DNA of 64,000 nucleotides, from contig NZ_AUDH01000009.1 in the NCBI RefSeq assembly GCF_000425365.1, positions 1 through 64,000 of the forward strand. The letters are read 5' to 3'. Shown here in pieces: positions 2,668 through 64,000 of this stretch (within the stretch, counting starts at the first letter, position 1; the number at the start of each line of letters is the position of its first letter). Both the position numbers and the translations under genes were made by a program. This DNA comes from Rubritepida flocculans DSM 14296. Its GTDB lineage: Bacteria > Pseudomonadota > Alphaproteobacteria > Acetobacterales > Acetobacteraceae. A model generated the notes under the pieces. That model was not told the DNA's origin and did not search any database. It saw only the letters and a list, made by a program, of their open reading frames with translations.

Positions 2668-2797
2668 TGATACAGACGGCATACCCTCCCGCCCGTATCG
2701 CCTGCAGGGTTGGCGTGGCGGCGGCGCGCCAAAACAAAGGCGTGCCAGCGACCGCGCCGCCTTCTCAAACAACTGAGAAGCGGCGGCCGCTGGTATG
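2668..2797 (+). repeat. R1 repeat, copy A
   Basis: This is a composite palindromic repeat. It starts TGATAC, followed by a decayed GACGGC/GCCCGTATC palindrome. The core GCAGGGTTGGCGTGGCGG comes next, then GCGCGCCAAAACAAAGGC, and finally a long hairpin CCAGCGACCGCGCCGC...GCGGCGGCCGCTGG ending in TAT. The same modules occur at 10091-10249, 58191-58318 and 62685-62848, with decayed copies elsewhere. This copy lies between the rrn terminator and the next gene; the remaining sequence of 2613-2925 shows no gene I can support. Confidence 0.85.
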
Positions 2798-7477: not shown

Positions 7478-9701
7478 CGACATCGTGCCAGCGGATGGCG
7501 GCGCGATCCGCCCCACGCGGCTCTCGGAGGCGCTGTCCGAGCGCTACCTCGCCTACGCCATGAGCACCATCATGGCGCGCTCCCTGCCCGATGTGCGCGA
7601 CGGGCTGAAGCCGGTGCACCGCCGCCTGCTCTGGGCGATGCACCAGTTGAAGCTCGACCCCGCGAGCGGCTTCAAGAAATGCGCGCGCGTGGTGGGCGAC
7701 GTGATCGGCAAATACCACCCGCATGGCGATGCGGCCGTCTATGAGGCGCTGGTGCGGCTCGCGCAGGATTTCGCCGCGCGCTACCCGCTGGTCGAGGGCC
7801 AGGGGAATTTCGGCAACATCGACGGCGACAACGCCGCGGCCATGCGCTACACCGAGGCGCGGCTGACCGAGGTGGCGCAGGCGCTGCTCGCGCAGATCGA
7901 CGAGGACACCGTCGATTTCCGCCTTACCTATGACGGCGAGGACCGCGAGCCGGTGGTGCTGCCGGCCGCCTTCCCCAACCTGCTGGCGAACGGCGCGAGC
8001 GGCATCGCGGTGGGCATGGCCACCTCCATCCCGCCGCACAACGCGGGCGAGCTCTGCGCCGCCGCGCTGCACCTGATCGCGCACCCCGAGGCGACGACGG
8101 CCGAGCTTCTGGCGCATATGCCCGGCCCCGACTTCCCCACCGGCGGCGTGCTGGTCGAGGGGCGCGAAAGCCTGATCGAGGCCTATGAGACGGGCCGCGG
8201 CGGCTTCCGCCTGCGCGCGAAATGGGAGGTGGAGCGCCAGAAGGGCGGCGGCTGGCAGATCGTCGTCACCGAGATCCCCTACCAGGTCGCGAAGTCACGC
8301 CTGATCGAGCAGATCGCGCTGCTGCTGGAGGAGAAGAAGCTGCCGCTGCTCGGCGATGTGCGCGACGAGAGCACCGAGCGGGTGCGCATCGTGCTCGAGC
8401 CGCGCAGCCGCACCGTCGAGCCGGCCGTGCTGATGGAGACGCTGTTCCGCGCCACCCAGCTCGAAAGCCGCTTCCCGCTCAACATGAACGTGCTGGACGC
8501 GAGCCGCACGCCGCGCGTGATGTCGCTGCGCGAGGTGCTGCGCGCCTGGCTCGATCATCGCCACGAGGTGCTCAAGCGCCGCAGCGCGCACCGGCTGGCC
8601 GCCATCGCGCGGCGGCTGGAGGTGCTGGAGGGCTACCTCATCGTCTATCTCAACCTCGACGAGGTGATCCGCATCATCCGCACCGAGGAGGAGCCCAGAC
8701 CGAAGCTGATGGCCGCCTTCTCGCTCAGCGAGGTGCAGGCGGAGGCGATTCTCAACATGCGGCTGCGCGCCCTGCGCCGCCTCGAGGAGATGGAAATCCG
8801 CCGCGAGCACGAGAAGCTGCTCAAGGAGCAGAAGGGCCTCGCCGCGCTGATGGGCAGCGAGGCGAAGCGCTGGGCCGCCATCGGCCGGGAGATCGAGGAG
8901 ACTCGGCGGAAGTTCGGCGAGGGCGCGCTGGGCGCGCGCCGCACCGCGGTGGCCGAGGCGCTGCCCGCCCTGGCGGTGGACGAGAGCGCCTTCATCGAGC
9001 GCGAGCCGCTGACGGTGGTGCTCTCGCAGAAGGGCTGGATCCGCGCGCTGAAGGGCCATCTGCCCGAGGATGCGGAGCTGCGCTTCAAGGAGGGCGACGG
9101 GCCGGCCTTCCGGCTGCACGCGCAGAGCACCGACCGGCTCGTGCTCTTCGCCAGCAACGGGCGCGCCTATACGCTGAAGGCCGATGCGCTGCCGCGCGGC
9201 CGCGGCGACGGCCAGCCCGTGCGGCTGCTGGTGGATCTGCCCAACGAGGAGGAGCCCATCGCGCTTTTCGTGCCGGTCGAGGGCAGGAAGCTGCTTCTCG
9301 CCGCCAGCGACGGCAAGGGTTTCCTCGTGGAGACGGCGGAGCTTCTGGCGGAGAAGCGCACCGGCAAGCAGGTGATGACGCTCGAAGGCGGGGCGCGCGC
9401 CGTGCTGTGCAGGCCCGCCGAGGGCGACCATGTCGCGGTGATCGGCGAGAACCGCAAGCTGCTCGTCTTTCCGCTCGAGCAGCTTCCGGTGCTGGCGCGC
9501 GGGCGCGGCGTGCAGTTGCAGTCCTACAAGGATGGCGGGCTGTCGGACGCCAAGGTCTTCACCCTGGCGGAGGGCCTCTCCTGGCGCCTGGGCGACCGGC
9601 TGCGGGTGGAGCATGATCTCAAGCCATGGCAAGGGCATCGCGCGGGCGCCGGCAGGCTGCCGCCCAATGGCTTCCCGCGCGGCAACAGCTTCGGGGAGTG
9701 A
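7470..9701 (+). CDS. parC: DNA topoisomerase IV subunit A
   Basis: This 743-aa protein, working with ParE, decatenates chromosomes. The N-terminal breakage-reunion domain has [11 protein letters not shown] (84-94) and the catalytic Tyr127 in [10 protein letters not shown]. The C-terminal part is the shorter beta-pinwheel of ParC rather than the longer one of GyrA. The residue matching E. coli ParC Ser80 is Ala88, while Glu92 matches Glu84. It overlaps recO by 8 nt. Confidence 0.94.
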
Positions 9702-9703
9702 CC

Positions 9704-10093
9704 ATGCGCCTCGGCATCATGCTTGCGCTGCTGCTGGCCGCCTCTCCGGCGCTGGCGCAGCGCGCGCCCGGCCCGCATGACGGCATCTATGACGGGGTGA
9801 TGTTCCAGGAATGCCGCGGCGGCGGCCGGGTGCGGCAGGACCGCACCTCGGCCGAGGTGCGCGGCGGCGAGATCGTCATCGCCGGGCTGCCGGGGGATGC
9901 GCCCATCACCGGCCGGATCGGCGCGAACGGGGCGGTGACGCTGCCGCCCGTCGGGCTGTTCCAGGCCGGGCAAGGGCAGATCTTCATCGGCGCGAACAAC
10001 GCCCGGCGTTTCACCGGCAGCCATCCGGGGCGCGGAACCTGCAGCCTGGGCTACGATCTGCGGCGCAGCGGGCCCCTGCCGCGCGGCCGCTGA
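9704..10093 (+). CDS. small secreted protein of unknown function
   Basis: This 129-aa protein has a clear signal peptide (MRLGIMLALLLAASPALA, cleavage before QRAPG). The mature part has two Cys, many Gly and no domain I recognise. The ATG lies 2 nt after the parC stop, with GGGGAGTGACC as overlapping ribosome binding site, so it is co-transcribed with parC. Its TGA is also the first three bases of repeat R1 copy B. Whether the native C-terminus was longer is not known. Confidence 0.75.
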   Translation: MRLGIMLALLLAASPALAQRAPGPHDGIYDGVMFQECRGGGRVRQDRTSAEVRGGEIVIAGLPGDAPITGRIGANGAVTLPPVGLFQAGQGQIFIGANNARRFTGSHPGRGTCSLGYDLRRSGPLPRGR

Positions 10094-10249
10094 TACGGCC
10101 GGCATGACATGCCGGCCGTATCGCGCGCAGGGTTGGCGTGGCGGCTGCGCGCCAAGACAAAGGCATACCAGCGGCCGCCCCGGCTCCTCAGGAGTCGAAA
10201 TCAGCGGCCGCTGGTATGACACGGCCGGCATGACATGCCGCCCGCCTCA
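10091..10249 (+). repeat. R1 repeat, copy B (most complete)
   Basis: The copy fills the space between two convergent genes exactly. Its first bases TGA are the stop of the upstream gene, and its last three (TCA) are the stop of rnhA on the minus strand. The modules in order are: a near-perfect palindrome of GATACGGCCGGCATG with its complement; the core GCAGGGTTGGCGTGGCGG; GCGCGCCAAGACAAAGGC; the long hairpin ATACCAGCGGCCGC...GCGGCCGCTGGTAT with inner CTCCTCAGGAG; then a second GGCCGGCATGACATGCC palindrome. It could act as a bidirectional terminator or mRNA end, though it has no T-runs. Confidence 0.9.
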
Positions 10250-23975: not shown

Positions 23976-24736
23976 CCCGCCTCCCCGATGGCGGGCGCCT
24001 CGCCCGTCATGCCGGCCAGAACCTCGGCCACATGGCGCACCTGCACGGGGCTGCCCTCGCGCTTCAGCCGGCCTGCGATGTTCAGCAGGCAGCCCATGTC
24101 GCCCGCCAGCAGCAGATCGGCCCCGGTGGCGGCGATGTCGGCCGTCTTGTCGCTGACCATGCGGGTGGAGATGTCGGGATACTTCACGCAGAAGGTGCCG
24201 CCGAAGCCGCAGCAGATCTCGGGCTCCTTCATCTCGGTCAGGGTGAGGCCCGCCACGCTCTCGAGCAGGGCGCGCGGCTGCGCCTTCACGCCGAGCTCGC
24301 GCAGCCCCGAGCAGGAATCGTGATAGGTGGCGCGCGCCTCCAGCCGCGCGGGGACGGCGCGCAGGCCCATGACATCGGTCAGGAAGCTCGTCAGCTCATG
24401 GGTCTTGGCGGCGAGGCGCTCGGCGCGGGCGCGGTATTCGGGGTCCAGCTCCGCGAAGAGGGCGGGGTAGTGGCGCGCGATCATCGCCGCGCAGGAGCCC
24501 GAGGGCGCCACGACGAAATCGAAGCCCAGGAAGGCGTCGATCACCTGGCGGGCGATCTCCTGGGCGGTGGCGCGGTCGCCCGCATTGTAGGCGGGCTGGC
24601 CGCAGCAGGTCTGGGCGGGCGGCACCTCGACGCGGCAGCCCGCCTCCTCCAGCAGCCGGATGGCGGCGAAGCCGACGGCGGGGCGGTGGATGTCCACCAG
24701 GCAGGTGACGAAGAGGGCGACGCGGGGAGAGGCCAT
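23972..24736 (-). CDS. LutA/YkgE-like Fe-S protein
   Basis: This 254-aa protein has two CCG domains: TCCGQP with upstream VTCLVDIHRP, and ICCGFGGTFCVKYP near residue 190. In lactate utilisation (LutABC) or glycolate oxidase such subunits pass electrons. Here lutB and lutC are not adjacent; the partners are a dioxygenase and an exonuclease. Its first 149 bp are copied upstream in a tandem duplication (24588-25221). The full gene itself appears intact. Confidence 0.85.
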   Translation of the reverse strand: MASPRVALFVTCLVDIHRPAVGFAAIRLLEEAGCRVEVPPAQTCCGQPAYNAGDRATAQEIARQVIDAFLGFDFVVAPSGSCAAMIARHYPALFAELDPEYRARAERLAAKTHELTSFLTDVMGLRAVPARLEARATYHDSCSGLRELGVKAQPRALLESVAGLTLTEMKEPEICCGFGGTFCVKYPDISTRMVSDKTADIAATGADLLLAGDMGCLLNIAGRLKREGSPVQVRHVAEVLAGMTGEAPAIGEAG

Positions 24737-24784
24737 GGCCTGAAACTAGGCGCGAAGCGGGCCGGCGTGAATGGCGCGGCCGCC

Positions 24785-24907
24785 CGTATCAGTTACCCAC
24801 CGGCGGTCCCGACCCGCCGTGAATGAAACTGTGGCACTCTGGTTTGGCTGGTGGCGAGGTCGGCATGGTCATGGTGCGCCAGAGCCCGCGTGTCAGTTTC
24901 TGTCTAG
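24785..24907 (+). repeat. R2 repeat, copy 1
   Basis: This 123-bp element begins CGTATCAGTTACCCACCGGCG. It contains a CGGCGG/CCGCCG hairpin and a longer fold in which GAAACTG pairs with CAGTTTC and CTCTGG with CCAGAG. It ends in CTAG. Read on the plus strand it holds a 28-codon frame starting MKLWHSGLAGGEVGM. Its terminal CTA gives the TAG stop of the truncated lutA fragment. Confidence 0.88.
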
Positions 24908-25053
24908 GCGGGCTGGCCGCAGCAGGTCTGGGCGGGCGGCACCTCGACGCGGCAGCCCGCCTCCTCCAGCAGCCGGATGGCGGCGAAGCCGACGGCGGGG
25001 CGGTGGATGTCCACCAGGCAGGTGACGAAGAGGGCGACGCGGGGAGAGGCCAT
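24904..25053 (-). pseudogene. truncated copy of the LutA-like gene
   Basis: The second copy of the duplication carries the start codon and first 49 codons of the LutA-like protein, up to the TCCGQPA segment. It then meets TAG from R2 copy 1. Only the first CCG half-motif is present, so the peptide cannot be functional. It also places an extra lutA start and its upstream region in front of the intact gene. Confidence 0.85.
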
Positions 25054-25101
25054 GGCCTGAAACTAGGCGCGAAGCGGGCCGGCGTGAATGGCGCGGCCGC
25101 C

Positions 25102-25224
25102 CGTATCAGTTACCCACCGGCGGTCCCGACCCGCCGTGAATGAAACTGTGGCACTCTGGTTTGGCTGGTGGCGAGGTCGGCATGGTCATGGTGCGCCAGA
25201 GCCCGCGTGTCAGTTTCTGTCTAG
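25102..25224 (+). repeat. R2 repeat, copy 2
   Basis: This copy looks identical to copy 1 because it lies in the tandem duplication. Its terminal CTA (25221-25223) forms the TAG stop of the 94-aa gene on the minus strand, so the element touches that coding region directly. Confidence 0.88.
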
Positions 25225-38154: not shown

Positions 38155-38207
38155 CATACCAGCGGCGGCGGGTATGCCTTTGTTTTTGCGCGCCGCAGCC
38201 CGCATCA
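38155..38207 (-). repeat. R1 repeat, deleted copy E
   Basis: GCATACCAGCGGCGGCGGGTATGCC keeps the outer part of the long hairpin, followed by TTTGTTTTTGCGCGCCGCAGCCC and then GCATCAG. The core and the terminal palindrome are lost. The final TCA is the stop of the minus-strand gene 38205-38516, and the element begins 5 nt after the serA stop. So it again fills a convergent gap. Confidence 0.7.
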
Positions 38208-38516
38208 GCGCAGCCGCCTCCCCCTCCGGAACCGCCACCAATCCTGCAGCGGCCCGAGGGCCAGCAGCGGCAGGGCCGCCAGCGTCAGCAGCGCGAACAC
38301 CGCCGCCGCCCCGCGCGCGCCCGAGGCCAGGGCGGCCACCGTCAGCCCCGCCAGCGCCCCGATCACCAGCAGCGCCAGGGCGAAGAGCGCCAGCACCAGC
38401 CGGTGCCGCGGCGAAAGCCACTCGGGCGGCGGCGCCGCATCGGCCCGCGGCGTGCCGTCGCGCGAGACCTCGAAGGTCCGGGCAGGGTCGAGGCCGAAGG
38501 GCCGTTCCTCTCTCAG
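38205..38516 (-). CDS. small membrane protein, possible CTG start
   Basis: The frame gives 103 aa: a soluble N-terminus (REERPFGLDPARTFEVSRDG), two helices (about 39-60 and 67-88), then a basic end (WWRFRRGRRLR). No ATG, GTG or TTG fits. CTG at 38516 overlaps the upstream TGA (CTGA), like the usual ATGA coupling, so I use it. Its stop comes from R1 copy E. Function unknown; probably co-translated with the 100-aa protein before it. Confidence 0.55.
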   Translation of the reverse strand: MREERPFGLDPARTFEVSRDGTPRADAAPPPEWLSPRHRLVLALFALALLVIGALAGLTVAALASGARGAAAVFALLTLAALPLLALGPLQDWWRFRRGRRLR

Positions 38517-42610: not shown

Positions 42611-42800
42611 ACACCCCGCTGCGCGAGCGGCGAGCTTTTCCCCGCGCGCCGCTGGTCGCGCAGCGCTAGCCGCGCTGCGCGAGCGGCACGCCCGCCTCGC
42701 GCGCCGCTGGCCGCGCAGCGCTAGCCGCGCTGCGCGAGCGGCACGCCCGCCTCGCGCGCCGCTGGCCGCGCAGCGCTAGCCGCGCTGCGCGAGCGGCACG
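42611..42800. repeat. 55-bp tandem repeat at the 3' end of gltA
   Basis: CTAGCCGCG recurs at 42666, 42721 and 42776, giving a 55-bp unit with two exact copies, a partial copy that enters the gltA coding region, and a diverged copy at 42618-42665. Each unit contains the gltA ending PLAQRG-stop on the minus strand. Since 55 is not a multiple of 3, each copy lies in a different frame. Inner parts are palindromic (GCTGCGCGAGCGGC, GCGCGCCGCTGG). Confidence 0.9.
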
Positions 42801-43909
42801 ACAGGCCGCTGCTCCACGCCGGTGTAGCGCGAGAGCGGGCGGATCAGGCGGTTGTCGGCGGCCTGCTCCAGCACATGCGCGGCCCAGCCCGTGATGCGCG
42901 AGCAGACGAAGATGGGCGTGAACATCGGGATGTCGAAGCCCATCAGGTAGTAGGCGGGCCCGGCCGGGAAATCGAGGTTGGGGTGGATGCGCTTCTCCTC
43001 CAGCATCACCCGTGCGAGCACGGCGGAGGTGTTCATCCAGCGCTTGTCGCCCACCACCTCGGCCATCAGCTCCGCATACTTCTTCATGGTCGGCACGCGG
43101 CTGTCGCCGTTCTTGTACACGCGGTGGCCGAAGCCCATGACCAGCGCCTTGTGGTCGAAGCGCTCGCGCAGCCAGGCCTCGGCGGCCTCGGGCCCCGGGA
43201 TTTCCTTCAGCATGTGCATCACCGCCTCGTTCGCGCCGCCGTGCAGCGGGCCCTTCAGCGCCGCGATGGCCGCGGTGATGGCGCCATGCATGTCCGCCAT
43301 GGTCGAGGTGACGGTGCGCGCGGTGAAGGTGGAGGCGTTGAAGGTGTGCTCGGCGTAGAGGATCATCGAGACGTCGAAGGCCTTGATCACCTCCTTCTGC
43401 GGCACGCGCCCGAACACCATGTGGAAGAAGTTCTCGCACCAGGGCAGGGCCGGATCGGGCGCGATGGGCTCGAGCCCCTTGGAGAGCCGGTTGGTCGCCG
43501 CCACCGCGCAGGGGATCTTCGCCAGCAGCCGCATCGCCTTGCGGCGCTGCGCGGCGTCGCTGATGTCGGCCGTCTCGGGATCCTCCATCCCCATGAAGGA
43601 GACGGCGGTGCGGATCGCGTCCATCGGGTGCGCCTCCTTCGGGAACTCCCGCAGCACGCGCAGCAGGGCGGGGCTCAGGCCCCGCTCGGCCTTCTCCGCC
43701 GCCTGGAAGGCCGCAAGCTCGGCGCGCGTCGGCAATTCGCCGTTCCAGAGCAGATAGGCGACCTCGTCGAAGCTCGCCTCCTCGCAGAGATCCTGCACCG
43801 CATAGCCGCGATAGGTGAGGCTGTTCGTCTCCGGCATCACCTTGGAGATGGCGCTGTCATCGGCATAGACGCCGACCAGCCCCTTGCGCACTTCGATGGC
43901 GTCCGACAT
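42776..43909 (-). CDS. gltA: citrate / 2-methylcitrate synthase
   Basis: This 377-aa enzyme condenses acetyl- or propionyl-CoA with oxaloacetate. Catalytic His lie in LYAEHTFNASTF and GPLHGGANEAV, the Arg/His pair in GFGHRVYKNGDSR, and the Asp in MGFDIPMFTP. Its short length and end (IRPLSRYTG) match the PrpC-like group that includes bifunctional forms, so the citrate role is likely but not certain. GAGGAAGA precedes the ATG. Its stop lies in a 55-bp tandem repeat. Confidence 0.88.
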   Translation of the reverse strand: MSDAIEVRKGLVGVYADDSAISKVMPETNSLTYRGYAVQDLCEEASFDEVAYLLWNGELPTRAELAAFQAAEKAERGLSPALLRVLREFPKEAHPMDAIRTAVSFMGMEDPETADISDAAQRRKAMRLLAKIPCAVAATNRLSKGLEPIAPDPALPWCENFFHMVFGRVPQKEVIKAFDVSMILYAEHTFNASTFTARTVTSTMADMHGAITAAIAALKGPLHGGANEAVMHMLKEIPGPEAAEAWLRERFDHKALVMGFGHRVYKNGDSRVPTMKKYAELMAEVVGDKRWMNTSAVLARVMLEEKRIHPNLDFPAGPAYYLMGFDIPMFTPIFVCSRITGWAAHVLEQAADNRLIRPLSRYTGVEQRPVVPLAQRG

Positions 43910-50176: not shown

Positions 50177-50549
50177 CTCCCCACGACGCCGCTGCGCGCC
50201 GTCGCGGGGGCCCCGGGAGAACTCCCCACGACGCCGCTGCGCGTCGTCGCGGGGGCCCCGTTGAGGCTCTGAATCTGGGAGGGTGGCGCCTCCTTCCGCG
50301 GCAGAGCCGCGGAAGGGCTCCGCCGGGGGCGAGGCCGGAGGGCGTGCGTTTCCTGGCCATTCGCGCGAGGCGCGGAGGAGGAGATGGCCGGCGTCATTCG
50401 CCCGCTCCGGGCGGAGGCGCGGCTTCGCCGCGCCGGAGCAGCGCGCCCCGCACAGGCCGGGCGCCCATGGGGCCCCCGCGACGGCGCGCAGCGGCGTCGT
50501 GGGGAACTCGGGGGGCCCCCGCGACGGCGCGCAGCGGCGTCGTGGGGAA
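50177..50549. repeat. R3: doubled 38-bp repeat in inverted arrangement
   Basis: A 38-bp unit (CTCCCCACGACGCCGCTGCG onward) occurs at 50177-50214 and 50222-50259. Its reverse complement occurs at about 50469-50506 and 50512-50549. The two pairs enclose 210 bp that contains CCTTCCGCGG/CCGCGGAAGG and CGCGGCTTCGCCGCG hairpins. The right unit ends one base before the stop of the Bug gene and the left begins 4 nt after the holC stop. No gene lies in 50173-50550. Confidence 0.88.
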
Positions 50550-57512: not shown

Positions 57513-57547
57513 CCTCCGGGCGCGCCCCGATCGCGGGCTGTTGATGC

Positions 57548-57769
57548 GCCTGTGTCCTGGCCCGCAGCCGCCACGCCGGGCCGCAACGCGGCGCGCCGCC
57601 CTGGGTGCGCCATCGCTGCGCCATCCGGGCGGCATGTCATGCCGACCGTATCAGTTACCCACCGGCGATCCCGACCCGCCGTGGATGAAACTGTGGCACT
57701 ATGGTTTGGCTGGTGGCGAGGTCGGCATGCCGATGGTGCGCCAGAGCCCGCGTGTCAGTTTCTGTCTAG
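57548..57769 (-). repeat. fused repeats: degenerate R1 copy H and R2 copy 3
   Basis: 57548-57646 resembles R1 in reverse: CCTGTGTCCTGGCCCGCAGCC, then GGCGGCATGTCATGCCGACCG, the terminal palindrome. It runs directly into R2 (57647-57769), which differs from the copies at 24785 and 25102 at six positions. CGTATCAG is shared by the R1 end and the R2 start. The final CTA (57766-57768) is the stop of the VOC gene. The rest of 57513-57765 has no gene. Confidence 0.8.
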
Positions 57770-58190: not shown

Positions 58191-58318
58191 TCATACCAGC
58201 GGCCGCTGATTTCGACTCCTGAGAAGCCGGTGCGGCCGCTGGTATGCCTTTGTTTTGGCGCGCAGCCGCCCGCCAACCCTGCGCGCGATACGGTCGGCAT
58301 GTCATGCCGACCGTATCA
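58191..58318 (-). repeat. R1 repeat, copy C
   Basis: The orientation is opposite to copy B. ATACCAGCGGCCGC pairs with GCGGCCGCTGGTAT around an inner GACTCCTGAGAAGCC; then GCCTTTGTTTTGGCGCGCAGCC, the CGCCAACCCTGC core and the palindrome GATACGGTCGGCATG with its complement. Its last TCA (58316-58318) is the TGA stop of the acyl-CoA synthetase gene. Its other end stands 39 nt upstream of the VOC start. Confidence 0.9.
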
Positions 58319-60406
58319 GGGGGCGAGTTCGATCACCGCATCGGCGGCGAAGCCGCCTTCTCCCGCGGGCAGCACGAAGAAGGGGTTGATGTCCACCGAG
58401 ACCAGCCGCTCGCCCGCCGCCGCGCCGAAGGCGGAGAGCCTGGACAGCGCCTCGGCCAGCGCCGCCACGTCGGCCCTGGGGCGGCCGCGCGCGCCGTCCA
58501 GCAGCGGAAAGCCCTTGAGCGAGCGGATCATCGCCTCCGCCTCCGCCACGCCGAAGGGGCAGCGGCGGAAGGCGACATCCTTCAGCACCTCGATGAAGAC
58601 GCCACCCAGCCCCACCATCGCCACGGGGCCGAAGACCGGGTCGCGGAGCAGGCCGAGCGCCATCTCCACCGCGCCCTTGATCTGCCTGGCCACCAGCACG
58701 CCCTCGAGGCGCGCGCCGGGCGCGTGCTCGGCCGCGCGGGCCATCAGCGTGGCGAAGCCTTCGCGCACCGCCGCCTCGTCCGCCACGTCGAGCAGCACGC
58801 CGCCGATCTCGCTCTTGTGCAGGATGTCGGGCGAGAGGATCTTCATCACCACGGGGAAGCCGAACTCCCGCGCCGCGGCCACGGCCGTCTCCACCGCGGG
58901 GCAGGCGCGCTCGGGCACGGCGGGGATGCCCGCCTCTGCCAGGATGCGCTTCGCCTCGGCCTCGGAGGGCGCCTCGGCCGGCAGGGCGATGGCGGGCAGG
59001 GGCGGCGGGGCGGCGGGGGCGGCGGCGAAGGCCGCGCCGAAGCGGCCCAGCGCGTGCAGCGCCACCACCGCGCGCGTCGGATCCTCGAAGACGAGGAAGC
59101 CGTCGCGCTCGTAGTCGCGCACCATCTCGGGGGGCGCGATGACGCTGAGCGCCCAGACGCGGTCGGGGTGGTCCTGCATCACCGCCTTCATCTGCGCGCG
59201 CACCTTGGGCGCATTGGTGGTGGAGCCGCCCACCTGGGTGAAGAAGCCGAGGCAGGAGGTGTAGCCGCCCTCCTCCACCATGCTGCGCGTGAAGGCGCCG
59301 ATCAGCTCGATCTGGTTGAAGGCCTGGGCCGTGCAGTCCACCGGGTTGGCGGGCGCGCAGAAGGGCACGAGGCCGCGCAGCCGCGCCTGCGCCGCCTCCG
59401 GCATGGGCGGCATGGGAAAGCCGAGGGATTCCGCCACGTCGCTGATCAGCACCCCCGCGCCCCCCGAGACGGTCATCACGCCCAGAGTGTTGTGCGCGGG
59501 GTAGATGCGCTTCGTCGCGGCGTAGGCGATGTCGAGCAGCTCCTCCGTGTTGCGGGCGCGCACCACGCCGAACTCGGCGAGCACCGCCTCGGTCACCGCG
59601 TCGTCGCCGGCGATGGAGGCGGTGTGGGACTGCGCGGCGCGCGCGCCGAGCGCGCTGCGGCCCACCTTCATCATCACGATGGGCTTGCGGTTGCGCCGCG
59701 CGAGATCGAGCGCGGCGAGGAACTTCGCGCTCTCGCGGATTCCCTCCGCATAGGCGCAGATCACGTCGATCTCGGGGGATTGCGCCATCCAGCCCAGCAC
59801 GTCGCCCAGCGCCACCTCCGCCTCGTTGCCGGTGGTGACGACGACATTGGTGCCGATGCCGCGGTTGCGCGCGAGCGAATAGAGATGCGTGCCATAGGCG
59901 CCGGACTGCGAGGCGATGCCGATGCGCCCCGCGATGGGCCAGCCCTGCTCGAAGGAGGAGGAGAAGATCGGGTAGAAGCCGATCGCGTCGTTGAACAGGC
60001 CGAGGCAGTTGGGCCCCAGCATCCGCATCCCGTGCCGCCTGGCCGCGGCCACCATGCGCGCCTGGGCCTCGGCGCCCTTCTCGTCCACCTCGGCGAAGCC
60101 CGCGGTGAAGACGATGGCGGCCTTGGTGCCCTTCGCCCCCAGCGCCTCGATGGCCTCGATCGCCGCCTCGCCCGGCACCGCCACGAGGCCGACATCGGGC
60201 GTCTCGGGCAGGGAGGCCACATCGGGAAAGGCCGGGATGTCCTGCACCGAGGGCCGCTTGGGGTTCACCGGGAAGATGGCCCCCCGGAAGCCGCGCGCCT
60301 TCATGTAGGCGATGGGCCGCCCGCCGATGCGCGTGGGATCGTCCGATGCGCCGACGATGGCGATGGAGCGCGGGCGGATCATCGGGTCGAGCGTGGCGAA
60401 GTCCAT
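58316..60406 (-). CDS. ADP-forming acyl-CoA synthetase (fused alpha/beta)
   Basis: This 696-aa protein joins a CoA-binding half (SIAIVGASDDPTRIGGRP, the phospho-His region ASQSGAYGT, and the HTASIAGDD loop) to a C-terminal ATP-grasp half (SEAEAKRILAEAGIP, FPVVMKILSPDILHKSEIGG). It converts acyl-CoA and ADP to acid and ATP, or the reverse. The acid is unknown. Its stop codon comes from R1 copy C. The M20 gene lies 33 nt upstream on the same strand. Confidence 0.9.
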   Translation of the reverse strand: MDFATLDPMIRPRSIAIVGASDDPTRIGGRPIAYMKARGFRGAIFPVNPKRPSVQDIPAFPDVASLPETPDVGLVAVPGEAAIEAIEALGAKGTKAAIVFTAGFAEVDEKGAEAQARMVAAARRHGMRMLGPNCLGLFNDAIGFYPIFSSSFEQGWPIAGRIGIASQSGAYGTHLYSLARNRGIGTNVVVTTGNEAEVALGDVLGWMAQSPEIDVICAYAEGIRESAKFLAALDLARRNRKPIVMMKVGRSALGARAAQSHTASIAGDDAVTEAVLAEFGVVRARNTEELLDIAYAATKRIYPAHNTLGVMTVSGGAGVLISDVAESLGFPMPPMPEAAQARLRGLVPFCAPANPVDCTAQAFNQIELIGAFTRSMVEEGGYTSCLGFFTQVGGSTTNAPKVRAQMKAVMQDHPDRVWALSVIAPPEMVRDYERDGFLVFEDPTRAVVALHALGRFGAAFAAAPAAPPPLPAIALPAEAPSEAEAKRILAEAGIPAVPERACPAVETAVAAAREFGFPVVMKILSPDILHKSEIGGVLLDVADEAAVREGFATLMARAAEHAPGARLEGVLVARQIKGAVEMALGLLRDPVFGPVAMVGLGGVFIEVLKDVAFRRCPFGVAEAEAMIRSLKGFPLLDGARGRPRADVAALAEALSRLSAFGAAAGERLVSVDINPFFVLPAGEGGFAADAVIELAP

Positions 60407-61568: not shown

Positions 61569-62687
61569 ATGACCGCCTATCTCGACCCCCGCAGCGGGCG
61601 CACCTGGCCGCTCGATGCGCCCCGCTGGTGCGGCGATGACCGCGCACCCCTGCTGCTGACCGATCTGCCCGGCATCGGGCGGGAGGACATCGCCACCGGC
61701 CTGCGCAGCCTCTGGCGCTATGCCGCGGCCCTTCCGTTCCTGCCCGCCGCGCCCATCAGCATGGGTGAGGGCTGCACGCCGCTCGTCGAGATGGCGCTGG
61801 GCGGCGGCACGGCGCTGCTGAAATGCGAGTGGTTCATGCCCACCGGCAGCTTCAAGGACCGCGGCGCCTCGGTGATGCTCTCGCTGCTGCGCGAGCAGGG
61901 CGTGCGGGCGGTGCTGGAGGATTCCTCGGGCAATGGCGGCGCGGCCATCGCCGCCTATGCGGCGGCCGGGGGCATGCAGGCCAGCATCTTCGTGCCCGCG
62001 AGCACCTCTCCCGCCAAGACGGTGCAGAGCCGCGCGGCGGGGGCCTCCATCACCCTCGTGCCCGGCTCGCGCCAGGACTGCGCCGAGGCCGCCGAGCGCG
62101 AGGCGGAGCGGATCTTCTACGCCAGCCACAACTGGCACCCCTTCTTCCTGCAGGGCACCAAGACGCTCGCCTATGAGCTGTGGGAGGATCTCGGCTTCCG
62201 CGCGCCGGACAACGTGATCATCCCCTGCGGCGCGGGCTCCAACGTGCTGGGCTGCGCCATCGGCTTCGGGGAGCTGCTGCGCGCGGGGCAGATCGCGAAG
62301 CGGCCGCGCCTCTTCGCCGCGCAGCCCGCGAATTGCGGGCCCATCGCGCGCGCCGCCCTCGGCCTGCCGCCCGCGCCCGCGCGGCCCACCATCGCGGAGG
62401 GCACCGCCATCGCCGAGCCGCTGCGCCTGCCCGAATGCCTGGCCGCGCTGCGCGAATCGGAAGGGGGCGCGGTGCTGCTGAGCGAGGAGGAGATCGCCGA
62501 GGCCGCGCTGACGCTCGCCCGCCGCGGCGTCTATGTGGAGCCCACCTGCGCCCAGGCCGCGGCCGCCTTCGGCAAGCTGCTCGCGGCGGGACGCATCGCC
62601 CCGGGCGAGACGAGCGTGGTGGTGCTGACGGGCACGGGGCTCAAGGCCACGCCGCGCTATGCGGAGATGCTGGGAGTGGCGCTGTGA
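61569..62687 (+). CDS. threonine synthase-like PLP enzyme
   Basis: This 372-aa fold-type II PLP enzyme has the Schiff-base Lys in PTGSFKDRGASVML, the phosphate/substrate loop EDSSGNGGAAIAAYAA and the IPCGAGSNVLG turn. The MGEGCTPLVE start is typical of threonine synthase relatives. Since thrB lies elsewhere in the window, it might be a true threonine synthase, but a related lyase or deaminase is as likely. Its TGA belongs to R1 copy D. Confidence 0.85.
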   Translation: MTAYLDPRSGRTWPLDAPRWCGDDRAPLLLTDLPGIGREDIATGLRSLWRYAAALPFLPAAPISMGEGCTPLVEMALGGGTALLKCEWFMPTGSFKDRGASVMLSLLREQGVRAVLEDSSGNGGAAIAAYAAAGGMQASIFVPASTSPAKTVQSRAAGASITLVPGSRQDCAEAAEREAERIFYASHNWHPFFLQGTKTLAYELWEDLGFRAPDNVIIPCGAGSNVLGCAIGFGELLRAGQIAKRPRLFAAQPANCGPIARAALGLPPAPARPTIAEGTAIAEPLRLPECLAALRESEGGAVLLSEEEIAEAALTLARRGVYVEPTCAQAAAAFGKLLAAGRIAPGETSVVVLTGTGLKATPRYAEMLGVAL

Positions 62688-62848
62688 GACGGCCGGCGGT
62701 CACGCCGGGCGTCTCGCGCGCAGGGTTGACGGGCACCCATCGAAGCTGCGCTTCGATGGGACCCGCCGTGGCGGCTGCGCGCCAAAGCAAGGGCATACCA
62801 GCGGCCGCGCCGCATCCCCACGAGTCAATGCAAGCGGCCGCTGGTATG
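62685..62848 (+). repeat. R1 repeat, copy D with extra hairpin
   Basis: It begins TGAGACGGCCGGCG, whose TGA is the stop of the PLP gene. The core GCAGGGTTG is interrupted by about 38 bp with a CCCATCGAAG/CTTCGATGGG hairpin, then resumes CGTGGCGGCTGCGCGCC. The long hairpin ATACCAGCGGCCGC...GCGGCCGCTGGTAT closes it. The final GGTATG holds the first ATG of the M81 gene. It therefore contacts both neighbouring coding regions. Confidence 0.9.
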
Positions 62849-64000
62849 ATGCGGCCCCGCGTCGCCCTGCTGGGCTTCTCCATCGAGTGCAACCGCTTCG
62901 CCCCCGCCGCCGGCGAGGCGGATTTCGCGCAGCGCTGCCTGCTGCGCGGGCCCGCCATCCTCGCCGATGCGCGCGGCCCCGCCCCGCAGGCGCTGGGCGA
63001 GATGCCGGGCTTCGTCGCGGAGATGGACGCCGCCGGCCCCTGGGAGCCCAAGCCCATCCTGCTCGCCATGGCCGAGCCGAACGGGCCGGTGGAGCACGGC
63101 TTCTTCGAGCGGCTGATGGCCGAATGGCAGGCTGGGCTGCGGCTGCTGCGCGGCCGGGTGGAGGGCGTGTTCTGCGTGATGCACGGGGCGGGGCTGACCA
63201 CCCGCCTCGACGACCCGGAGGGCGCGCTGCAGGCGCTGGTGCGCGCGGAGCTGGGCGAGGTCCCCTTCGTCTGCTCCTGGGACCTGCACGCCAATGTCAG
63301 CGACGCGAACGTGGCGCTGAACGACGCCTTCGTGGGCTACCGCACCAACCCGCACCTCGACATGCGCGCGCGCGGCGCCGAATGCGCGCAGCTCCTGCGC
63401 CGGCTGATGGCGGGCGAGCGCTTCCTGCGCGCGCATCGGCGGCTTCCCATCGTCGCGCCCACCGTCTCGCTGCTCACCGCCGAGGGGCCCTATGCGGAGG
63501 TGATCGCGCTCGGCCAGCAGCGCCAGGCGGAGGATCCGCGCATCGTCAACGTCTCGGTGATGGGCGGCTTCGCCTATGGCGACACGCCCTTCAACGGCAT
63601 GTGCGCGGTGGTGACGGCGACGCATCAGGGCGCGGCCGACCGCCTGGCCGATGAGCTGGCCGAGGCCGCCTGGGCGCGGCGCGCGCGCTTCGTGGCCGAT
63701 CTCACCCCGCTCGAGGAGGCGGTGCGCCGCGCCCTCTCGAGCGATGTTCCGCTCGCCTTCGCCGATGTGGCCGACAATCCGGGCGGCGGCGGGCGCGGCA
63801 ACACCATGTGGATCCTGGAGGCCTTCCACCGCGCGGGCGTGCAGGGCGCCGTCTTCGGCGTGATCCACGACCCCGCGCTCGCCATCGAGGCCCATGAGAA
63901 GGGCGTGGGCGCGCGCTTCGAGGCGCGCTTCAACCGCGACGCCGCGCAGGATCCCTTCGCCCGCCCCTTCGCGGCGGAGGCGGAGGTGATCGCGCTCTCG
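62846..64000 (+). CDS. M81 family (MlrC-like) peptidase, partial at window end
   Basis: 385 codons are visible and the frame stays open at the window end. VALLGFSIECNRFAP starts the family fold; SWDLHANVSD and YRTNPHLDM are metal-binding boxes, and ADVADNPGGGGRGNT is the second-domain signature. MlrC degrades microcystin-derived peptides, but most members have unknown substrates. The start is uncertain: ATG at 62846 or 62849, both at the edge of R1 copy D, with no ribosome binding site visible. Confidence 0.85.
   Translation, partial: MMRPRVALLGFSIECNRFAPAAGEADFAQRCLLRGPAILADARGPAPQALGEMPGFVAEMDAAGPWEPKPILLAMAEPNGPVEHGFFERLMAEWQAGLRLLRGRVEGVFCVMHGAGLTTRLDDPEGALQALVRAELGEVPFVCSWDLHANVSDANVALNDAFVGYRTNPHLDMRARGAECAQLLRRLMAGERFLRAHRRLPIVAPTVSLLTAEGPYAEVIALGQQRQAEDPRIVNVSVMGGFAYGDTPFNGMCAVVTATHQGAADRLADELAEAAWARRARFVADLTPLEEAVRRALSSDVPLAFADVADNPGGGGRGNTMWILEAFHRAGVQGAVFGVIHDPALAIEAHEKGVGARFEARFNRDAAQDPFARPFAAEAEVIALS

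Follow-up and report, generated by a model that had tools for sequence, protein, structure and literature searches.

The window analysed here is the whole 64,000-nucleotide stretch at positions 1–64000 of contig 9 of the Rubritepida flocculans genome (3.83 Mb in 74 contigs). Between two convergent genes near its beginning lies copy B of a repeat that we call R1. The upstream gene (9698–10093), which had no Pfam match, ends in the TGA at 10091–10093 (plus strand), and these bases are also the first three of the 129-nt R1 core (10091–10219, plus strand). The core consists, all on the plus strand, of the palindrome P1 (10092–10122, GATAC..GTATC), a hairpin with a conserved loop (10123–10152, loop AGGGTTGGCGTGGCGGCT at 10129–10146), an A-rich spacer (10153–10163) and the hairpin P2 (10164–10218, CATACCAGCGGCCGC..GCGGCCGCTGGTATG), and it closes on a second TGA (10217–10219) that is probably a 3-bp target duplication. 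An extra palindrome on the right, P1' (10220–10249, plus strand), ends in TCA at 10247–10249, which is the stop codon of the minus-strand gene rnhA (PF00075 match).

Copy C (58191–58318, minus strand) has its TGA at 58316–58318, the stop codon of a minus-strand gene of CoA-ligase type (58316–60406; PF13549/PF13607/PF13380). Copy D (62685–62849, plus strand) is of the long type, its loop interrupted by an inserted hairpin; its TGA at 62685–62687 is the stop of a PALP enzyme gene (61569–62687, PF00291), and the downstream gene is called as starting at its terminal ATG (62846). Copy E, a deleted fragment read by eye (about 38161–38207, minus strand), supplies its TGA to a weakly called minus-strand ORF of 63 codons (38205–38396) with no Pfam match. 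Two further copies lie away from stop codons, namely copy A (2668–2797, plus strand) and a degenerate partial R1 (57537–57653, minus strand) whose left end abuts another repeat, R2. The first-pass annotation had claimed five base-exact coincidences between R1 and stop codons in the window, and all five are present. It had also described copy B as touching two convergent genes at once; both stops are indeed there, but rnhA is reached through P1', outside the 129-nt core. Because P1' (30 nt) is borne by some copies only, the contact with rnhA is a separate and weaker coincidence.

R1 copies were read in the window and in 53 further stretches of the same genome, 495 kb in total, that had been picked around R1 or loop-motif matches. 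Genes were called with a purpose-built fifth-order three-periodic model trained on long frames, by which the first 38 sequences were ~90% coding, at 73% GC. With a score of at least 50 and a visible left end required, 58 copies were read in the 495 kb; this is a lower bound for the genome, as each genome-wide search scored no more than 40 candidates. The consensus is a 129-nt repeat with three hairpins, in the order P1, middle hairpin, A-rich spacer, P2. Alignment of the 44 fuller copies placed sharp boundaries at TGATACGG and GGTATGA, beyond which the flanking sequences were unrelated. Seven long forms (164–166 nt) carried an additional hairpin within the middle loop, and P1' was found on the right side of some copies. 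The fold of copy B was far more stable than those of shuffled sequences (z of −7.6 as RNA and −8.2 as DNA). The terminal inverted repeat is short and imperfect (TAC..GTA), and the orientation of R1 relative to its target word is fixed. R1 is thus short, non-coding and multicopy, as expected of a MITE.

The first three bases of R1 were the stop codon of the upstream called gene in 34 of the 58 copies, comprising 32 TGA, two TAA and no TAG. The other 24 copies lay behind R2 (six), behind another R1 (three) or elsewhere (15, two of them within called reading frames). Over all 58 left ends, the triplet beside P1 was TGA in 51, TAA in three, TCA in two, CGA in one and a tandem junction in one. The bases flanking the triplet showed weak preferences only, for G at −1 and for a GC-rich right side to which the P1' copies contribute. 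The same sequence outside R1, counted on both strands, contained 347 TGA stops and 627 intergenic TGAs; if all non-coding TGAs were equal targets, 347/(347 + 627), or 36%, of insertions would fall on stops. After the nine dependent copies (behind R2 or another R1) were dropped, 34 of 49 independent copies were flush with a stop (p = 1.8e-6), compared with 34 of 58 when all were kept (p = 4.8e-4), and the enrichment at stop codons anticipated from the window was thus borne out. Stops outside R1 numbered 347 TGA, 64 TAG and 13 TAA, so that TAG was represented by 0 of 34 R1 stops vs. 64 of 424 other stops (p = 0.007). Because intergenic TGAs are used and TAG stops are not, the target of R1 looks like the DNA word TRA rather than the stop codon as such. 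Among the three options offered by the first-pass annotation, targeting of stop codons therefore came nearest, with the correction that what is targeted is T(G/A)A and not stops in themselves.

An excess over the TGA-word null would also be expected if gene ends were actively recognised beyond the word TRA, through translation termination or through hairpins or single strands at 3' ends. Consistent with this, a convergent gene followed the stop more often at R1 than at other TRA stops (13/33 vs. 83/370, Fisher p = 0.034), and outside the genus, too, related elements can start on a stop. However, 15 of the 49 independent copies lie elsewhere, no TAG stop is used, and purifying selection against insertions in 5' intergenic regions would give the same excess, and we regard such recognition as rather unlikely. 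The excess at stops would instead come from selective loss of insertions elsewhere or from a mild preference for stops.

Orthologous loci in the sister species, Roseococcus sp. SKW89, were compared using 28 of the 34 stop-flush copies as queries (L182, L186, L191, L194, L195 and L197 were left out), and a match was listed for 26. R1 was absent from all 26 sister loci (E up to 1e-3); it inserted after the split from the sister species. In 21 of the 26, the sister gene ends at the same TGA/TAA codon (20 identical, one TGA for TAA), whereas two of the remaining five have TAG and three (L035 and window copies B and C) have no stop at that codon. Since 21 of the 26 sister genes already end there without R1, the element went into pre-existing stops. 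Allowing up to 3 nt, 13 of the 26 loci had a right flank that came back into register, with an offset of 0 in L012, L013 and L027, and the others were indel-shifted, not collinear or not available. Empty and filled sites with precise junctions (26 of 26 empty, 13 in register) are again what a MITE would leave. Copy D has a clean empty site, where the sister sequence reads GTGA, while the sister right flank of copy B is not collinear and the codon of copy C is CGA in the sister species and TGA in another congener (G002). Where P1' is flush with a convergent stop, some sister loci (such as L022) already contain a spacer of similar length and others (such as L042) do not. The reciprocal comparison with five sister-species copies gave two sites (L058 and L064) that are empty in R. 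flocculans with an intact TGA, and three (L047, L068 and L072) at which R. flocculans bears its own element or palindrome on that same stop.

Orthologues with the same gene ends and unrelated sequence after the stop were the observation that the first-pass annotation had named as speaking against its proposals. Such orthologues were found; they are what insertion into an existing stop predicts, and they count against the other two options raised there, that selection keeps only insertions supplying a stop and that R1 is part of 3' ends as a structure in the mRNA. The former fails at most loci, with 21 of 26 orthologues stopping there without R1. A related account, in which R1 carries its own TGA, inserts randomly near gene ends and truncates genes at its first base, would fit copies B and C and L035, where the sister genes do not stop at that codon. 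It is highly improbable against the 21 of 26 orthologues that already stop at the R1 codon; moreover, insertions in other frames would put stops inside R1, yet a same-direction called gene reads through R1 in only 2 of 58 copies. Random-frame truncation was accordingly rejected on both reading frames and orthologue stops.

The mRNA-structure option fails as an origin, as all 26 orthologous gene ends lack R1. Retention of R1 to terminate the upstream gene's transcript, or to stabilise its 3' end as an RNA structure, would suit copy B, whose transcript begins right after the stop and is far more stably folded than shuffled sequences (RNA z above). We consider it unlikely, given the absence of R1 from 26 of 26 orthologues and the copies placed at the starts of divergent genes (L034 and L040) or between co-directional genes (20/33). 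In addition, no T run was seen after the hairpins; judged by eye, the sequence that follows them is GC-rich or A-rich, in contrast to an intrinsic terminator.

The right ends bear on how the stop is preserved. Among 51 readable right ends, the triplet was TGA in 45, TAA in four and TGG in two. The 42 independent copies with both ends comprised 36 TGA/TGA, two TAA/TAA, one TGA/TAA, two TGA/TGG and one TCA/TGA. A TAA right end was found in both full copies with TAA on the left (2/2), compared with 1/39 independent and 2/47 of all copies with TGA on the left, the latter two being L015 and L026 of the R. flocculans genome. At L030, a single TAA in the sister site corresponds to TAA on both sides of the filled site. 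In L015 and L026, and in the sister-species copy L058 with TGA on the left and TAA on the right, the right triplet departs from the left one, and L058 counts against strict duplication. We infer that the target triplet is duplicated rather than carried by R1. A transposase would probably recognise the R1 ends, insert at TRA and duplicate three bases, and insertion into a stop codon would then keep the gene end at the same codon (TGA|TAC...GTA|TGA). Since A is the last base of R1 ahead of the duplicated TGA, ATG can re-form where a start codon overlapped the stop. In L016, L039, L045 and window copy D the next gene is called from this final ATG, as expected of an insertion that splits an overlapping stop and start.

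The junctions of R1 are exact, its orientation is fixed, and it is absent from TAG among the copies read. R1 is very probably a small non-autonomous, MITE-like element that inserts in a single orientation into TGA, rarely TAA, with three bases duplicated and the stop preserved. It would then show how a mobile element can live cheaply in a genome that is ~90% coding, its target word being harmless at stop codons and the codon being left intact.

The presence of a mobilising enzyme was also investigated. The Y1 (HUH) transposase domain PF01797 had no matches in the R. flocculans genome, while 5 of 14 control genomes were positive, and an IS200/IS605 or REP/RAYT origin of R1 was set aside with the Y1 domain absent. 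IS5-type domains were represented by 13 matches to PF13340 and 15 to PF01609. At 20 IS5-type loci, many of which end at contig ends, a search for the left-end word gave no pair of R1-like ends, and one R1-like left-end word occurred in three of the 20 (two of them overlapping). Neither the PF01797 search nor these 20 loci, a weak test with many of them cut by contig ends, identified an autonomous partner. No R1 match was found on plasmids, and a 17-mer scan with P2 gave only one stretch, L134 from Roseococcus sp. SKW89, that matched the R1 profile among the 76 listed. L134 is identical over 1859 bp to the sister-species stretch L058, and R. flocculans belongs with Roseococcus (Roseomonadaceae in the NCBI lineage). 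No Rfam family reached its gathering score over R1 in the window. In the open-licence literature we found no account of repeats that sit on stop codons and duplicate a triplet, and no description of the conserved loop sequence or of a conserved alphaproteobacterial hairpin.

R2, the repeat that six R1 copies lie behind, is 115 nt long and occurs in the window at 24792–24906, 25109–25223 and 57654–57768 (minus strand), with 30 matches in the genome. It appears to form the end of an element of IS110 type (IS1111 and IS110 form one group); its flank in L043 translates to AMEVLHPRCAGLDVHKDSV, which we take to be the start of an IS110-like protein. In the three window copies, as well as in L014, L015 and L023, the adjacent called gene receives a TAG stop from the left end of R2, CTAG; on its right side, R2 is joined to TGATAC or TCATACC ends. 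It is as if R2 split a CT core (CT|GATACGG) and turned a C-TGA stop into C-TAG at the same codon. R1 itself could be moved by bridge-RNA recombination of the IS110 type at a short core, and this would explain both the fixed orientation and the short direct repeat. The joining of R1 ends by the IS110-like-looking R2 through an apparent CT core recalls IS621 as presented in the excerpted text of PMC11208160. This route is nevertheless very unlikely for R1, which encodes no protein and has no target match of ~11 nt; beyond TRA its flanks share only weakly preferred neighbouring bases and no long common target. Other repeats in the window include an exact 300-nt repeat (24588–24887 and 24905–25204, spacing 317 nt) that includes R2 together with part of a gene region, a 55-nt unit in three tandem copies, with a GC-rich palindrome (42640–42804), and a nested hairpin array of long inverted repeats (50178–50548; 42 nt at 95% and 37 nt at 97–100%).

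The middle hairpin of R1 has a wider distribution than R1. It carries the loop AGGGTTGGYGTGGCGGCT on variable, self-complementary stems, and R1 matches in congeners other than the R. flocculans and sister genomes were mostly to this hairpin only. The pattern GGGTTGGYGTGGCGGC occurred in 18 of 21 genus genomes, 53 times in R. flocculans, with one match to a reversed-pattern control. Across the family, AGGGTTGGYGTGGCGGCT was found in 33 of 200 genomes and 20 of 102 genera (reversed control, none), and in a class sample it was found in 8 of 240 genomes, or 7 of 239 other than R. flocculans (reversed control, one). It was also present in 33 stretches of 31 viral contigs, which can hold host DNA (reversed control, 0). 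These searches used the exact pattern, which hides variation in the loop. Seven Rfam matches were obtained at E up to 1 for five hairpin-bearing loci, none over the hairpin.

The stems were paired well beyond chance. In 65 distinct hairpins from the genus and family, 6.5 contiguous pairs stood beside the loop vs. 1.8 with shuffled arms (best of 500: 2.6), although 13 of the 65 had zero contiguous pairs, several through a one-base slip; without 19 GCGCGC stems the values were 6.3 and 1.1. In 37 distinct hairpins from viral contigs, 11.0 of 12 positions were paired vs. 5.9 when shuffled (best of 1000: 7.1), and in seven hairpins from other families, 9.3 vs. 5.2 (best 8.0). Template-switch repair of imperfect palindromes could produce such paired stems free of selection. 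The hairpin was found with both strands as sense relative to neighbouring genes, which favours a role at the DNA level. The loop contains four GG tracts, with TT and YGT as spacers and a single C as the third, and these tracts suggest a quadruplex. The G-quadruplex of the thrombin-binding aptamer has a closely similar pattern of GG tracts and TT/YGT spacers; the R1 loop differs in its single-C third spacer and in sitting on a stem.

R1 is a lineage-specific version of a broader layout, TGATAC-P1-GTATC, conserved-loop hairpin, A-rich spacer, ATACC-P2-GGTATGA, and some relatives have the full arrangement with unrelated P1 and P2. Of 28 loci examined for outer ends, 21 hairpins matched a loose loop pattern. 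Outer TGATAC/TGATGC ends closed an open frame of 112–500 codons in 12 of these (L047, L064, L068, L072, L048, L059, L257, L258, L262, L274, L275 and L276), in seven the frame ended at another nearby stop, and in L075 and L277 there was none. This is supportive, not proof, as GC-rich DNA has long open frames, in other frames too at L047, L064, L072 and L276. Tentatively, R1 may be the local form of an undescribed class-wide unit, an 18-nt loop (possibly a G-quadruplex) on a stem of free sequence, located at gene boundaries of Alphaproteobacteria and seemingly of their viruses, and recognised in folded form by some enzyme. In R1 this unit would have gained two end hairpins and become a stop-seated mobile element. 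The conserved-loop hairpin is a distinct feature with strong statistical support and, it appears, no name as yet; finding what binds it might uncover a new system of recombination, of replication or at the RNA level.

Several arrangements of the hairpin were observed outside R1. It is repeated alone in the R. flocculans genome in L183 (2500–2570), L184 (2653–2766) and L188 (2500–2571), with spacings of 54, 97 and 55 nt. In seven congeners (L202, L212, L177, L203, L205, L169 and L181), it stands upstream of a gene starting MKFLDEAKV, presumably ObgE, on stems that differ and are mostly paired. Viral contigs L316, L336, L343 and L345 have a C-rich partner loop (CCGCC..CCAACC) before the G-loop hairpin, with one arm shared in an alternating three-arm arrangement.

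Among known systems, R1 resembles REP palindromes in being made of intergenic hairpins, as far as the excerpts available from PMC2817692 and PMC3733652 describe them, and REPs are reported as targets of IS110-family elements in part of PMC11208160. Compared with REP/RAYT systems as covered in those excerpts, R1 is longer, has precise insertion junctions and resides in a genome in which no Y1 transposase was found. The likeness to the MITEs ERIC, RUP, Correia/NEMIS and YPAL/RU-2 is closer in kind: in the sections of PMC2229807 and PMC10969869 drawn on here, these are <200 bp, mostly intergenic, and have structured transcripts and target duplications, and YPAL has both empty and filled sites. 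R1 shares its size, mostly intergenic placement and structured transcript with them, and probably target duplications as well. According to the same sections, most small bacterial MITEs are A+T-rich with TA termini, whereas R1 is GC-rich and seated on TRA stops; R1 also differs from such MITEs in its single orientation, three separate hairpins and conserved loop. YPAL/RU-2 likewise lack TA ends and A+T richness, but their duplications span 3–26 bp. QMITE2 in Coxiella is a small element of about 50 copies, and the portion of PMC5896051 available places one gene's stop codon directly before or after a copy. Its duplications there are variable, at 7–11 nt, and that portion does not describe a general rule of insertion flush with stops. 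QMITE2 is also a hot spot for an IS1111 element (PMC5896051, same portion), an association that resembles the R1 ends joined by the IS110-like R2.
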